From positions 62,001-126,000 of the forward strand of contig JADZFR010000050.1 of assembly GCA_020849795.1 (NCBI GenBank): a stretch of 64,000 nt of DNA, given 5' to 3'. Under the pieces are notes generated by a model. That model ran no database searches. It worked only from the letters and a program-made list of their open reading frames with translations, and was not told where the DNA came from. This DNA comes from Planctomycetota bacterium (GTDB lineage Bacteria > Planctomycetota > UBA8742 > UBA2392). Numbering within the stretch: position 1 is the first letter of the stretch; each line of letters begins with the position of its first letter. A program made the position numbers and the translations under genes. Below, piece by piece: positions 47,287 through 55,239 of this stretch.

Positions 47287-48711
47287 TCAAGACTTAGCCC
47301 GGCCGGCGCGCCACTTGTCCTGGTAGCGTTGCAAGGCCTTTGGAGCGTGGGCCCGCATGGCCTCAGCCGCCTGCGCGCAGACGGCGGAAGCATCGTCGCC
47401 GGCTTGCAGCATCGCGTGGGCCGCTTCCGCCAGTATCACTGCCGCGCGTTCATAGTCGCTGATTGCATGGTAGCCTTCGTGGGCGCGGCGGTACCACTCT
47501 GCCGCATCACGCCAACAACGCGCCTCGCGCGCGATATCGCCAAGCACAAGCGCGGAAAACGCCACGCCCGGACCGGAACCGGAACCTTGGGCCAGAGTAA
47601 GCGCTTCCAGGGCGGCAGCCCGGGCTTCATCGGCCCGGCCCGAGTTTCGCAGCGCACGGGCCAATGTGGCCTGCGCGAAGCTGAGAATGCCCATGTCGCC
47701 TGTCTCGCGCAGACGGTCCATGGACTCTCGCAATATCTCAATGGCCACGACAGGTTCACCCAGTTCGTCGTGCAGGCCGCCCAGCGTCAGCAGGGCCATC
47801 GCCTCGCCGCGACGGTCGCCCAAAGCGCGCATCTCGTGCAAAGCCCGCGTGCACTCGTGTACTGCTTGCATGGACGGGCCGGCAACTCGCATCCGGTCTG
47901 CCAGGTTGCGCCGTGCCGCGGCGGTGGTCCGGCGGTCAGGTGTGCCTTCAAGTATCGCCAGCGCCGCACGCAGCGTCGCGATCACTTCAGTGTTCGTGCC
48001 GGCCCGTGTCTGCACGACACCGAGGTTCGCCATGATCCCGCCGTGCACCCTGGAGTTGCCCGACGCTGCTGCATGGGCGCAGGCCGCTCGCGCCAAGGGC
48101 AGTGCCTCAGCGGTGCGATTCATCGCAAACAACACCATGGCTTCCGCGTCCAGCGCAAGTGCGAGTTGCTCGTCGTTGCCGCCTGCTTCGGCCAGCACCA
48201 CCAGCCTTCGCGCGTACACCAGTGCTTCGTCCAGCCTGCCGATGTTGCGACAGGCGTAGGACAACGCGCGCAGCACTTCTTCCGACGCTTGCGCATTGTC
48301 TGCTGAACGCCCAAGCACTTCGATCGCGGCTTGCATGTTGCCAAGCTCAACAAGCGCCATTCCCTGCCCGCCAATTGCGCGCATGCGCTCAGCAATCTCG
48401 ATGGCGGGGTGCACGGCCGCGCGGGCATAGAGCAGCGCAGCCTCTCCTACACGCCACTTGTTGTGAGCGTATTTTGCAGCCCGCATCAGCCATTCGCACT
48501 CGCGTGCGCCGAAAGGCTCCCCGGCCCCGGCTGCGTGATTGGCAAGCTCGAGGCTCACGGCGTCAAGGGCGGCTGCGTCGTCGGCAAACGCCTGTTCAAT
48601 GAATTCAAGGGCATGGGCATGCAACGCGGCGCGCCGGGCGGGCGGTTGCAGTTCATAGGCGGCGTCGCGCATCAGCGCGTGCCGGAACAAGTATGCGCCT
48701 TCGGCATCCAC
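47287..48711 (-). CDS. Helical-repeat (TPR) protein, probably the 5'-truncated end of a STAND/AAA-type regulator
   Basis: 474 residues of TPR-like helix pairs (ALVYARRLVVLAEAGGNDEQ, AIEILRESMDRLRETGDMG). The first segment, GAYLFRHALMRDAAYELQPP, is the signature that normally follows the ATPase module in large adenylate-cyclase- or kinase-linked regulators. Here it starts at a GTG with no ribosome site, about 20 codons after an in-frame TAG, and no ATPase or kinase domain precedes it. I therefore suspect loss of the N-terminal half, though a short expressed version cannot be excluded. The frame is otherwise intact with normal codon use. Confidence 0.55.
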   Translation of the reverse strand: MDAEGAYLFRHALMRDAAYELQPPARRAALHAHALEFIEQAFADDAAALDAVSLELANHAAGAGEPFGARECEWLMRAAKYAHNKWRVGEAALLYARAAVHPAIEIAERMRAIGGQGMALVELGNMQAAIEVLGRSADNAQASEEVLRALSYACRNIGRLDEALVYARRLVVLAEAGGNDEQLALALDAEAMVLFAMNRTAEALPLARAACAHAAASGNSRVHGGIMANLGVVQTRAGTNTEVIATLRAALAILEGTPDRRTTAAARRNLADRMRVAGPSMQAVHECTRALHEMRALGDRRGEAMALLTLGGLHDELGEPVVAIEILRESMDRLRETGDMGILSFAQATLARALRNSGRADEARAAALEALTLAQGSGSGPGVAFSALVLGDIAREARCWRDAAEWYRRAHEGYHAISDYERAAVILAEAAHAMLQAGDDASAVCAQAAEAMRAHAPKALQRYQDKWRAGRAKS

Positions 48712-48835
48712 CAGGCCATTATGGCTGTCGGTTTGACAGGGGCAACGCGGCCTTCTGCAACTTTGGCAAACCAGACGGTGCCGGGCCGATAACTACAAGT
48801 GTCGCATTTTCAGCCACTTGCAGCCGGATTGCCAT

Positions 48836-48852
48836 TTGGCACGCAGGGTGCT
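48836..48852 (+). promoter_or_regulatory. Sigma-54-type promoter upstream of hsp20 (candidate)
   Basis: TTGGCACG-CAGG-GTGCT matches the -24/-12 consensus TTGGCACG-N4-TTGC(A/T) at every position but one, with the required GG-N10-GC spacing. Transcription would begin near 48863, about 26 nt before the ATG at 48889. Confidence 0.6.
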
Positions 48853-48888
48853 TATGCCTTCGCGGTTGAACTGAAAAGGAGACCAGCC

Positions 48889-49326
48889 ATGGGACGGATT
48901 CGACTTCGGGACCCGTTTGCAATCGCAATGCCGGACTTGCGCAACCTCTTCCGCGGGTTCATCGACGATGAAGAAGCGGGACTGCGCCCGCTGCTTGAAG
49001 AAGGCAGCCTCGCCGTGGACATCAGCCAGGGCAAAGAAGGCGAGACGATCGTCCGCGCCAGCCTGCCCGGCTTCAAGCGTGAAGACGTGCAGCTCAGCGT
49101 CCACAATGGCGTGCTGGACATCAAAGCCGAGAGCAAGCACGAAGAAGACACCAAGAACGAGAAGTTCTATCGCCGTGAGCGCCGCGTCAGCAGCCTCAGT
49201 CGCCGCATCGCCCTGCCGGGCAACCCTGACGGCGAAGGCGTTGCAGCGGAGCTCAAGGACGGCGTGCTGACCGTGAAAATCCCCACGCCTGCCAAGAACG
49301 GCCCCAAGCAGATTGCCGTGAAGTAG
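48889..49326 (+). CDS. Hsp20-family small heat-shock protein
   Basis: A 145-residue ATP-independent chaperone. The alpha-crystallin domain covers about residues 40-140: SLAVDISQGKEGETIVRASL, PGFKREDVQLSVHNGVLDIK, EKFYRRERRVSSLSRRIALP and the signature AAELKDGVLTVKIP. A short N-terminal arm (FAIAMPDLRNLFRGF) and a C-terminal extension ending KQIAVK complete the normal length. AAAAGGAG precedes the ATG. The upstream region carries a sigma-54-like promoter rather than an evident sigma-32 site, an unusual control for this gene class. Confidence 0.95.
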   Translation: MGRIRLRDPFAIAMPDLRNLFRGFIDDEEAGLRPLLEEGSLAVDISQGKEGETIVRASLPGFKREDVQLSVHNGVLDIKAESKHEEDTKNEKFYRRERRVSSLSRRIALPGNPDGEGVAAELKDGVLTVKIPTPAKNGPKQIAVK

Positions 49327-49339
49327 CCTTCTCATGCGA

Positions 49340-49370
49340 CACAGCCATCCGCGATACGCGGATGGCTGTG
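49340..49370. terminator. Bidirectional stem-loop between hsp20 and the VIT/vWA gene
   Basis: A perfect 14-bp stem CACAGCCATCCGCG / CGCGGATGGCTGTG with an ATA loop lies between the convergent stops at 49326 and 49385. No T tail. Confidence 0.7.
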
Positions 49371-49384
49371 AGCGTGCGCGGGAA

Positions 49385-52075
49385 TCACTCGGCTTTGGCG
49401 GCCGTCGGCTGGGTTTCTTTGCTCGGGACGGCTTCAGGCACCGCCACCGGGTCGGGCAGCGTGAACTGTGCATCGATCGTCCGGCCTTCGTCGTTTACCC
49501 GCGTCTCGAGCGTCGGGTTCTTGCCGCCCTGCAACAGCAGACGCTCAACCTGGTCCAGGCTCGTGACCTCGACGCCGTTTACGCGCATCAGGCGCTGGCC
49601 GTTGACCATGCCCATCTTTGCAGCCGGGCTGCCGTCATCGATGCCGACCACATGCACCTCTGTGCCGACTTGTGCCAGCGTCATGCCCCACTTGTCGATG
49701 CGTGCCGCGCGCGGAGTCTCGGTTTGTCCTTCGAACGTCACGCCCTCGGGCATTTCGCATGGCACCATCACACGCAACGGCTTGCCGTCGCTGTTGACCC
49801 TTGACTCGTCAACAGCCAGGAACGCCGTGTACTTGGTGACGATGCTGTAGCGCACCCCCAGGTCGGTGATGCGGGCAATCACATCGGGGTTCTCGGCGTC
49901 CTGCAGCAGTTGCGCCGACAAACCGTCCACCGTGCGACGCGCCCACAAGGCCGCGATCGCCGGGTTGCTGGACGCCGCCGTCAGGTCCACTTCAATCGGA
50001 AGCGCGACCTTGCGGCCACCGACGCGGCCGCGCACTGTCACGGTGTGCTTGCCCGTTACCATGGTGCGCGCACACAGCGTTAGCGGCTCGCCTGCAAACA
50101 GGTCCCTTGGGGCTGCCGGGGCGACGTCCTGTACCGCAAGCCCGCCCCAGTCAATTTCAATGTCGCACAGGACAGGGCTGTCGATGGCCAGAAAGAACTC
50201 CTCGGATGCGCGTTCGGCGCATGCAGTGTCGCGCGGCAGGCAGTAGATGGCTTTGCCGTTTCCGTGCTCGGCCACGCCGTCGCACAGGTGGCGATTGACG
50301 CTGCCGCCAATGCCAAAGGCAAAGCTGCGTGCGCCGCCTACCTGCTCTGCGCAGAGCTTGTGAATCTCGGCCTCGTTGCCGATGAAACCGTCGGTCATGA
50401 ACGCGTAGATGCCAAGGTAGCGGTTGTCGCGCGGGAGCTTCAGCGCATGCTGGAACCCTTCCAGCATCCGGGTGCCGCCGCCCGTGCTTGCGGTGTCCAC
50501 GAACGTCTCAGCCTGTGCCACGTGTTCGGGCGTGTTCTCCGCGGGGGCTTCGAACAGCGCCTTGGATGCGCCTGCAAAGGTGACGATGTTGAAGCGGTCG
50601 TCGGGCCGCATGCCGCGCAGAACCCGCTTGATGACTTTGCGGCTCACATTCGCGGGCTCTCCGGACATGCTGCCACTTACATCCAGCAGGAACGTGATCT
50701 CGCGCGGCGTGACGTCCACGTCGGCTGGGTCAAGCTGCGGCTGCAATTGCAGGTTCACGTATCCGCCATCAGAGTCGCGGTGCGTCCAGACGGCCGCTTG
50801 TGGCGCCTCTCCGATCACGCCCCAGCGCAGAACGAAATCGCGATTTGCGATGCGGTCGGCGTGTTTCAGCCTGGTGATCACGCGGCCATCGCTGGTCATG
50901 TCTGCGCTGACTTCGTGCGCCGCGCTTTTCAGCCTGGTCAGGTCGATGGGCAAGCCCGGCGCGAGTTCGACTTCGATGTCAACATCCATGCCGCTGCGTT
51001 CGTTGGGCGCCAGCATCGGCGGCGTGACCGCGGGCGCATCGGGCACGCGTTCATTGCCCGGGGTCGTGCCTTCCATGCCGACGGGGTCGCTGCTGCCAGT
51101 CAATGTCGGAGCAGCCGACGGGATGCAACGCGGGCCGATGGTCAGAGGGAACACATACTCGAACTGGCCCTGCCGATACGACAGCATCTCAAAGAACGTG
51201 AAAGTCACGCTGACTTCCGCGTTCACGGCAATGTTCGCCACGTTCTGCGTGAAGATGTTGGGGCGCTCTTGGGTCATGAGCGATGCGGTGTAGCCGCGGG
51301 CACGGGCCTCTTTGTAAGCAGCCTCGGCCTGAGCGCGGGGACGCACGATGCCGATGATGCGGCGCTTGCCCACGGTCATCACGAAGTCGTTGACCGCCGA
51401 GTCGGCGGGCAGCGGAAAGGTATAGACCGCTTCAATCGCTTGTGTGTAAGGGTTCGTGAACGTCTGGGTGACTTTCGTGGCTGCCAGCGAGCCTGTGACT
51501 CGTGCGCGCACTATGGTGCTCTTGAGAGGGAATGCGCCCAAGGTGCCCCCGTCGCCCTGGGCGACCAGGCCACCGGGTTGGTCGCTGTTGCCGCGGACTT
51601 CGCGCGGTTCTGGTTCGCCACCGCCGTTGCTCCCGCCGCCGCCCCGGGCGCGGCGATAGGCCACGCCGCCGGCGCCCGATGAGCCACCATACCCGCCGCC
51701 TCCGCCACTTCCGCACGAGCTGCCACCCCCGCCAATCGGGCCACCTAGCCCAAGCGACGACGTGTTCCGGTCAGGGTGCGGGGACTCGGCATCTGACGGG
51801 TCAACATTCGGGATCTTGGCGAGGTCGGCTTCATTGCGTGTGCTCAGGCCTTCGTCCACGCTGCGCGCAGCTTCTTCGCTGGGTCCTTCGCCGGGATCTT
51901 CGTTGTGGTCGGGGCCAGACGAAGCAACGGCATCGGGCAATGCAATCACTGCCACTTCGTCGGATTTCTGCTCCGGTGCCGGCGGCGGTTCTTCGCCTCG
52001 CGAGCACGCAGCGACGGCAATCGCAAACAGCAGGACTGGTAACGCCTTACGAATCAGGCTCTTGGTCAAACGCAT
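49385..52075 (-). CDS. VIT/vWA-domain lipoprotein with C-terminal PDZ-like domain
   Basis: An 896-residue protein with a lipoprotein signal (LLFAIAVAAC as lipobox) and AGGAG before the ATG. After an acidic, Gly-rich disordered region comes a VIT domain (VTQTFTNPYTQAIEAVYTFP and RPRAQAEAAYKEARARGYTA), then a von Willebrand A domain with intact MIDAS (FLLDVSGSMSGEP), at about residues 470-640. The C-terminus holds a PDZ-like domain (VVGIDDGSPAAKMGMVNGQR). This is the inter-alpha-trypsin-inhibitor-like architecture common in planctomycetes and proteobacteria. A metal-dependent adhesion or scaffold role at the cell envelope is inferred. Confidence 0.88.
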   Translation of the reverse strand: MRLTKSLIRKALPVLLFAIAVAACSRGEEPPPAPEQKSDEVAVIALPDAVASSGPDHNEDPGEGPSEEAARSVDEGLSTRNEADLAKIPNVDPSDAESPHPDRNTSSLGLGGPIGGGGSSCGSGGGGGYGGSSGAGGVAYRRARGGGGSNGGGEPEPREVRGNSDQPGGLVAQGDGGTLGAFPLKSTIVRARVTGSLAATKVTQTFTNPYTQAIEAVYTFPLPADSAVNDFVMTVGKRRIIGIVRPRAQAEAAYKEARARGYTASLMTQERPNIFTQNVANIAVNAEVSVTFTFFEMLSYRQGQFEYVFPLTIGPRCIPSAAPTLTGSSDPVGMEGTTPGNERVPDAPAVTPPMLAPNERSGMDVDIEVELAPGLPIDLTRLKSAAHEVSADMTSDGRVITRLKHADRIANRDFVLRWGVIGEAPQAAVWTHRDSDGGYVNLQLQPQLDPADVDVTPREITFLLDVSGSMSGEPANVSRKVIKRVLRGMRPDDRFNIVTFAGASKALFEAPAENTPEHVAQAETFVDTASTGGGTRMLEGFQHALKLPRDNRYLGIYAFMTDGFIGNEAEIHKLCAEQVGGARSFAFGIGGSVNRHLCDGVAEHGNGKAIYCLPRDTACAERASEEFFLAIDSPVLCDIEIDWGGLAVQDVAPAAPRDLFAGEPLTLCARTMVTGKHTVTVRGRVGGRKVALPIEVDLTAASSNPAIAALWARRTVDGLSAQLLQDAENPDVIARITDLGVRYSIVTKYTAFLAVDESRVNSDGKPLRVMVPCEMPEGVTFEGQTETPRAARIDKWGMTLAQVGTEVHVVGIDDGSPAAKMGMVNGQRLMRVNGVEVTSLDQVERLLLQGGKNPTLETRVNDEGRTIDAQFTLPDPVAVPEAVPSKETQPTAAKAE

Positions 52076-54230: not shown

Positions 54231-55022
54231 TTATGCCGCGATGTAGACGCCATCTGCGACGCTTGCGGCGAGCTGCTGCATGAAGCTCGCGCCGCCGCCT
54301 GCAATGCAGATGCAGATCAGCCGGCAGTCTTCAAACTTGTTCCACCAACCGGGGAATGCCGCCAGAATCGTGGATGGCGACTCGTTGGGGTAACCATCCG
54401 TGACGAAGAAGAACTGGTCAAGGTCGGCCGGGTAAGTCTGGCAGCCCTGTTGCAGTGCCGCGTACGAGGGCGTGCCGCCGCCGGGATTCATGGTCGGGCC
54501 GTTGACCCATGAGATGGCTGCGTTTTTGTTGCCGTCGGTCGCTGGCAGCAGGGCTCCCCACATGAACTTGACACCGCCAGTCGAAGCGAACTGGCCGCCG
54601 TAGGCCATGCAGTCAAGCTCGTCGTACTCGTTAAGGTCCTGAATGACCCCGGTCGTCTCGGCGCGCAGCGAAGCCATTTTGCTGCCGTACATGCTGCCGC
54701 TGGCGTCAAGAATGAAGGCCACCTTGCCGCGTACGGGCTCGCCATAGTACGGGGGCGGGTCCTGGATCGGGGGCTCAACCGGTGGCTCAGTGGGCGGAAT
54801 GTCTTCGCCTTCGCTGGGCGGTGTGGGGTCGGTCACGGGTGGCGGTTCAGTGGGTGTGCCGCCGCCGCCGCCGCCGGTGCCGTTCGGCACAACGATGACC
54901 GCGCCGCCGGCTGGCCGGTCGTGTGTGGTGGGTTTGGCGCCGTCGGGGCTTTTGATCTGTGCCTGGGCACAGAGAACGCCCGCGAACAGGCAAAGTGCTG
55001 CCGTCAGAACAAGTCTGTTCAT
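54231..55022 (-). CDS. Secreted von Willebrand A-domain protein
   Basis: A 263-residue protein with a signal peptide (MNRLVLTAALCLFAGVLCAQ) and GAAGGAGAAGG upstream. A Gly/Pro/Thr-rich linker (residues about 45-95) precedes a vWA domain with intact MIDAS (VAFILDASGSMYGSKM), FVTDGYPNESPSTI as the second metal loop and a final LICICIAGGGASFMQQLAAS strand-helix. It lacks the VIT domain of the 49385 gene. Metal-dependent protein-protein interaction outside the cytoplasm is inferred. The 217-bp divergent region upstream (55023-55239) contains no other gene. Confidence 0.83.
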   Translation of the reverse strand: MNRLVLTAALCLFAGVLCAQAQIKSPDGAKPTTHDRPAGGAVIVVPNGTGGGGGGTPTEPPPVTDPTPPSEGEDIPPTEPPVEPPIQDPPPYYGEPVRGKVAFILDASGSMYGSKMASLRAETTGVIQDLNEYDELDCMAYGGQFASTGGVKFMWGALLPATDGNKNAAISWVNGPTMNPGGGTPSYAALQQGCQTYPADLDQFFFVTDGYPNESPSTILAAFPGWWNKFEDCRLICICIAGGGASFMQQLAASVADGVYIAA

Positions 55023-55239
55023 GTCCTTCTCCTTCAAGATTAGTTGTAAGGCCTCCAAGCCTCACTGCGGCTAGAGCATTCAGCGTGCCAGTTTTGCGGC
55101 AGCGGCGACAAGTCGGCCGAAACCCGCTACATTGGCGGGAATTGCGGCCGTGTTACGATATGGAATCGAGCCGGCGGGCAGCAATTGCCGATACATTTTC
55201 GGGTGGAAAGCAACCTCGCGGTAACCTGAAGGAAGACAA

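Follow-up and report, generated by a model that had tools for sequence, protein, structure and literature searches.

The stretch of Planctomycetota DNA analyzed here (G000:C50:62001-126000, hereafter the window, 64 kb in all) belongs to a genome of 3.97 Mb in 63 contigs and carries hsp20, a gene for a small heat-shock protein preceded by a -24/-12 box of the sigma-54 type. Our purely computational analysis suggests, with a probability of roughly 75%, that this predicted promoter is one unit of a chaperone regulon run by an NtrC-type response regulator, the C36 regulator, through palindromic sites upstream of its target genes. At the level of sequence, the promoter, the palindromes, their conservation and shared use, and the presence of both rpoN and the regulator are established. 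Comparisons were made within a sample of 60 genomes (G000-G059, our own included), among which 43 had an Hsp20 match, including 14 of the 15 other members of the family. Hsp20 proteins 85 and 91% identical to that of the window were also present in two Planctomycetota metagenome assemblies (JAHBYA010000008 and JAMQHL010000031).

The hsp20 gene (48889-49326, + strand; PF00011, E 1.7e-20) encodes 145 amino acids and is the sole HSP20 match of its genome, and its start is common to the 11 single-copy orthologs of the family. The box TGGCACGCAGGGTGCT at 48837-48852 (+) has the layout TTGGCACG-CAGG-GTGCT, with GG at 48838-48839 and GC at 48850-48851, a 12 bp register. Scored against the sigma-54 consensus TGGCACG-N4-TTGCW, it agrees in 11 of 12 letters. 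It ends 37 bp before the ATG at 48889, and a ribosome-binding site AGGAGA that is invariant in the 11-locus alignment stands at 48877-48882 (+). The initial annotation, which had proposed a sigma-54-type promoter with correct spacing at a suitable distance from the gene and its ribosome site, was thus accurate in its description. The rpoN gene on which that proposal hinged is present as a single copy (PF04552, E 2.1e-52) with all three sigma-54 domains (AID, CBD, and DBD). From sigma-54 geometry, transcription is predicted to start at 48863 (+), 12 bp after the -12 GC.

The family hsp20 set comprises 15 loci (our own and those of 14 relatives), of which 11 are single-copy and four come from genomes with hsp20 pairs (G003, G007, G010, and G012), where the best Hsp20 match is the second gene of the pair. 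Each single-copy locus has two palindromes followed by a box that matches 10 or 11 of the 12 letters and starts 51-64 bp ahead of the ATG. In the pair genomes, two palindromes and an 11/12-letter box stand before the first gene, so that the arrangement is found before hsp20 or a tandem pair in 15/15 family loci. Mean pairwise identity among the 11 single-copy loci was 91.5% over the 12 box positions, against 50% in the N4 spacer and 31-42% in the flanks. The match could still be a chance word, with hsp20 read from a housekeeping or sigma-32 promoter, and the bare motif does occur at chance frequency: the window has 2 matches (up to one mismatch) versus 1.53 expected in shuffles, and the exact form TGGCACGN5TGCW occurs 8 times genome-wide versus 10 for a reversed control. 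Since these counts showed no excess, conservation was used as proof in place of counting. On that basis a chance word is very improbable, as box and palindromes are kept in all 15 family loci while their surroundings diverge, and no sigma-70-type promoter was recognized on the + strand of 48600-49400. A variant with a leading T and a freer tail in the first element, TTGGCAYN6TGCW, gave 58 versus 25 reversed-control matches in four genomes, and 15 versus 5 in our own. Conservation rather than motif match therefore confirms, as far as sequence comparison can, the prediction of a real sigma-54 promoter before hsp20.

The two palindromes of the window, here called upstream activating sequences (UAS), are the distal UAS1 TGTCGGTTTGACA (48726-48738, unstranded; matrix score 16.6; 111 bp before the -24 box) and the proximal UAS2 TGCAACTTTGGCA (48756-48768, unstranded; score 16.2; 81 bp before the box). 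Both are kept in the family hsp20 loci, where the two palindromes lie 48-139 bp before the box. They are spaced 30 bp apart (about three helical turns). In 31 of the 34 pairs across all sets, the two best sites were separated by 21, 29-31, 39-41, or 49-52 bp, and in the remaining three by 61, 82, and 82 bp; these spacings are close to whole helical turns. The scoring matrix was trained on hsp20 sites only, and the symmetrised consensus obtained from the non-training sets, TGCCAAWTTGGCA, is not fully independent, as its sites were chosen with that matrix. By itself the palindrome is a weak pattern genome-wide (49 matches versus 36 in the reversed control, with three places counted on both strands), and the background amounted to 10 sites scoring at least 12 per 174 kb. 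We also considered whether an upstream housekeeping promoter might have UAS1 as its -35 box, and set this aside because the UAS2 spacing varies over 21-41 bp and TTGACA is missing from several UAS1 copies. A divergent open reading frame with tetratricopeptide repeats (TPR; 47287-48711, - strand, 474 aa) has its first listed start 15 bp from UAS1, and a minus-strand sigma-70-like match (48745-48718) spans that palindrome, which might also affect this divergent frame.

Next to hsp20, the same arrangement was found at other chaperone genes, counting palindromes with a score of at least 12 within 300 bp upstream and, within the final 130 bp, boxes matching 10 letters or more. Among family dnaK genes, 13/14 had a palindrome (shuffle mean 0.49) and 14/14 a box, and lead groEL genes had both in 8/8 (palindrome shuffle mean 0.25), while the stretches before later groEL copies had neither (0/16 for each). 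Outside the family, 16 of 20 dnaK loci entered this count (L203 and L208, whose start was not recognised, and also L224 and L225 were left out), with palindromes in 9/16 (shuffle mean 0.25) and boxes in 7/16. The 15 outside-family hsp20 loci, which are part of the matches listed, had palindromes in 5 and boxes in 4; shuffle means stayed at or below 0.49 across sets. We then scanned for the combined element, defined as a box of at least 10 letters with a palindrome of score at least 12. The window contains it once, at hsp20. Within about 235 kb of other stretches from the same genome, partly selected for holding a palindrome or groEL, it was found only at the lead groEL (C22:71901), at a receiver-x-groES-groEL operon (C22:129128), and at a gene for an extracytoplasmic function (ECF) sigma factor (PF04542; C4:63315); dnaK carries it as well (C39:12669). 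The clpB gene (C3:23135) has a box, with a weak palindrome of score 11.5 lying 36 bp ahead of that box; palindromes are stronger at the clpB counterparts of G001 and G014 (14.7 and 17.8). Among 35 outside-family hsp20 and dnaK loci, including the four omitted above, 11 combined elements were detected, all 11 upstream in gene orientation and none on the opposite strand; that of L043, about 540 bp from its gene, is doubtful. The outlook of the initial annotation thus needs widening: its bare -24/-12 match recurs at chance level, but boxes accompanied by palindromes do recur at other chaperone genes, and hsp20, although supported as sigma-54-controlled, is not a lone oddity.

At the ECF gene (L060/L122; G000:C4:63148-63331) the palindrome lies 168 bp upstream of the sigma-54 box. 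Box and palindrome are also present at this gene in G002 and G014, and G001 has the box without a palindrome of score 10. A sigma-54-linked ECF sigma gene may form a second tier of the stress response.

Thirteen PF00158 matches, of which 8 are strong, were found in the genome of the window. Together with rpoN and the 15/15 boxes with palindromes, the strong matches support the earlier proposal that hsp20 may be under enhancer-dependent control. The best candidate activator is the C36 NtrC-type response regulator. This protein of 458 aa has a receiver (PF00072), a sigma-54 AAA+ domain (PF00158) with GSFTGA, and a Fis-type helix-turn-helix domain (HTH; PF02954), the composition of an NtrC-type enhancer-binding protein including the GAFTGA-type loop. 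It is the only activator of the genome whose gene has palindromes of score at least 13 directly upstream (13.1 and 14.5). An ortholog occurs in all 15 family relatives, and a palindrome precedes the regulator or its operon in 14/16 family genomes with our own counted: our own, nine relatives, G005, G007, and G010 (before a tandem regulator pair), and G011. The palindrome of G010 falls inside the longest open frame yet before the receiver, and G016, from the same order, has a palindrome before its regulator pair. The common regulator-gene palindrome TGCCAKCTTGACA shares bases with a possible -35 box, after which TAnnCC or TATnCA follows at a distance of 16 bases, and this position suggests autoregulation of the C36 gene.

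Gene neighbourhoods outside the family point in the same direction. A member of the C36 group is near dnaK in 7 of 18 such neighbourhoods, directly upstream in G024, G035, G045, and G048, no more than 3 kb away in G030 and G037, and divergent in G051. In G024, G035, G045, G048, and G051 the gene before the regulator encodes a kinase of 235-322 aa in which HisKA and HATPase domains, but no sensor domain, were recognised. A tree of 37 activators placed the C36 group and the seven dnaK-linked regulators in one clade of 25 (support 97/93), within which the HTH is strongly conserved; the tree is rooted for drawing only and has several long branches, which leaves its outer relations unsure. It is also conceivable that hsp20 and the other chaperone genes do depend on sigma-54 and the palindromes, but that the protein bound to the palindromes is another of the 8 activators. 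The C36 regulator is tied to the sites by circumstantial evidence, partner regulators adjoin the C36-type regulator in G005, G007, G010, and G016, and the activator L052 has a palindrome, though a weaker one (11.9), over its start codon. We consider this alternative unlikely, given that no other activator gene of the genome has a palindrome of at least 13 directly upstream and that dnaK linkage and the clade favour the C36 group.

Several observations weigh against control by the C36 regulator, or against the breadth of the arrangement. The family genomes are not independent of each other, the training palindromes were picked by eye from hsp20 loci, and the C36 regulator is the only activator that was traced into relatives. 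At hsp20 itself, the -12 element of the G003 pair reads TCGCT, and one palindrome of L026 scores below 9.5. Beyond the family, 7/16 dnaK loci lack a palindrome at score 12 and 9/16 lack a 10-letter box, and raising the threshold to at least 14 leaves palindromes in 8/14 family dnaK, 0/8 lead groEL, 7/16 outside dnaK, and 2/15 outside hsp20 loci (0/16 before later groEL copies). As for the regulator gene, no palindrome precedes it in G003 or in the readable 89 bp of G012, and the conservation of the palindrome may partly be that of the -35 box, given that it overlaps TTGACA. Eleven of the 18 dnaK neighbourhoods have no regulator, none of the seven dnaK-linked regulators has a palindrome (score at least 11) before its own gene, and the receiver of the G037 regulator looks degenerate. 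Finally, rpoH, rpoE, and rpoN are reported as present in Rhodopirellula baltica and not regulated on heat shock (PMC2754498).

Heat-shock genes are usually controlled by sigma-32, by HrcA and its operator CIRCE (controlling inverted repeat of chaperone expression), or by RNA thermosensors. HrcA was sought in 44 of the 60 planctomycete genomes, our own included, and was found in none of them, while the same search gave a match in 7 of 14 control genomes. No CIRCE was present in the window or in the 320-bp upstream stretches of those dnaK and groEL genes that were read. Rfam gave no match to the thermosensor ROSE (repression of heat shock gene expression) in 48500-49500, where its four matches were all under the gathering score, and the predicted hsp20 leader is 26 nt long with a fold z of -0.72. 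The Rfam model of the small RNA P17 matched 49291-49370 (+; E 0.00025; 26.6 bits against a gathering score of 45), covering the hsp20 end and the hairpin after it, and this match is probably due to chance. Chaperone genes might instead have two promoters, with sigma-54 serving one signal and another sigma factor serving heat. Dual control of this kind is described for Escherichia coli ibpB (PMC4370416) and Chlamydia hrcA-grpE-dnaK (PMC8762339), and a sigma-32 gene is reported in R. baltica (PMC2754498), but no second promoter was recognised at hsp20, the one gene to which this observation applies. We regard such double control as possible but rather doubtful.

Sigma-54 promoters have been predicted in silico to be enriched at heat-shock chaperones in Planctomycetota, mainly Planctomycetia (PLoS One 2025, PMC12316311), and the chaperones named there are IbpA/COG0071, GroEL, GroES, GrpE, DnaJ, and DnaK. 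Those regulons, like ours, place sigma-54 promoters at planctomycete chaperones, but the predictions are given by COG (clusters of orthologous groups) and class, and the available text gives no enhancer sites or activator for chaperones; HrcA has 0 occurrences in its main text. The additions made here are the shared enhancer and the candidate activator. Studholme and Dixon (2004), as cited in PMC12316311, described, for Pirellula sp. strain 1, the enhancer-binding proteins that act with sigma-54 and the sigma-54 sites nearby, and may already have included an activator beside dnaK, overlapping with the present case. Apart from that potential overlap, we found no earlier account of the shared enhancer, the activator assignment, or an HrcA survey in the literature available to us.

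Among known systems, E. coli ibpB is likewise a small heat-shock gene read by sigma-54; ibpAB, however, is also transcribed by sigma-32 (PMC4370416), whereas in the planctomycete the sigma-54 arrangement of hsp20 is shared by other chaperone operons. The HsfBA phosphorelay of Myxococcus xanthus, acting on lonD, likewise has an NtrC-like response regulator that directly regulates a heat-shock gene, but it differs in its hybrid kinase and in its targets, one heat-shock gene plus secondary-metabolite genes, with no chaperone regulon named in the text available (PMC9109919). Chlamydia also uses sigma-54 with an AtoC activator at a chaperone operon, through tandem sigma-66/sigma-54 promoters at hrcA-grpE-dnaK; unlike the planctomycetes searched, it has HrcA, and heat lowers its rpoN (PMC8762339). 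The heat-shock cascade of planctomycetes has been said to be significantly different (PMC2754498), and in a Desulfovibrio vulgaris sigma-54 paper the text seen names heat shock in a reference only (PMC4641369).

Under control by the C36 regulator, the phosphorylated protein would bind both palindromes, which point to roughly the same side of the helix, and DNA looping would bring it to the sigma-54 polymerase waiting at the -24/-12 box. Its ATPase would then open the polymerase, with transcription from near 48863. The regulator would also act at dnaK, the lead groEL, the receiver-x-groES-groEL operon, and the ECF sigma gene, and probably at clpB, and would control its own gene through the palindrome that overlaps the sigma-70-like -35 box. 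In this scheme we infer the binding of the palindromes by the C36 regulator, its activation by phosphorylation, heat or misfolded protein as the signal, and self-control. Because a kinase with no recognised sensor domain adjoins dnaK, DnaK itself could keep the two-component system inactive and let it go when proteins are damaged.

Other sigma-54-like loci were observed in the same genome. A second box in the window, TGGCACGCTGAATGCT (55075-55090, -), stands 68 bp before the ATG of a gene (54231-55022, -) for a secreted-looking protein of 263 aa without a Pfam match; no palindrome of score 12 occurs at this box, and the homologous genes of G001, G002, and G014 have -24/-12 boxes 65-108 bp upstream. 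At L050 (3769-7883; G000:C15) a sigma-54 box precedes genes for a 397-aa protein without a Pfam match, a histidine kinase, and an NtrC-type regulator, and the first-gene box recurs in G001, G002, and G014 (L172, L189, and L171) without the heat-shock palindromes. At L058/L149 (G000:C3:13370-13496), an open frame that spans at least 446 aa and has no Pfam match is preceded by the box TGGCACGCTAAGTGCA and, 111 bp upstream, by a weaker palindrome scoring 10.3. Two long activators were also noted: L055 (4186-7821; G000:C5; 1211 aa), in which an N-terminal sigma-54 AAA+ domain is followed by a second ATPase region resembling STAND (signal transduction ATPases with numerous domains) and TPR repeats, and L056 (1913-6643; 1576 aa), with its AAA+ domain near the C-terminus.

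Extending the reading to the phylum, we lean slightly towards the view that much of Planctomycetota, having no HrcA, controls its heat-shock genes by a dedicated two-component system whose genes lie next to dnaK in several lineages. In that system a small soluble histidine kinase would be paired with an NtrC-type regulator, and hsp20, dnaK, groEL, groES-groEL, clpB, and an ECF sigma gene would be activated via sigma-54 and tandem TGCCAAnTTGGCA enhancers. The analysis names a candidate activator and provides an operator sequence and a promoter list, which make planctomycete chaperone control directly testable. If the proposal is true, the main chaperones of these bacteria would wait for an enhancer-bound ATPase, and protein quality control would be tied to phosphorelay signalling.
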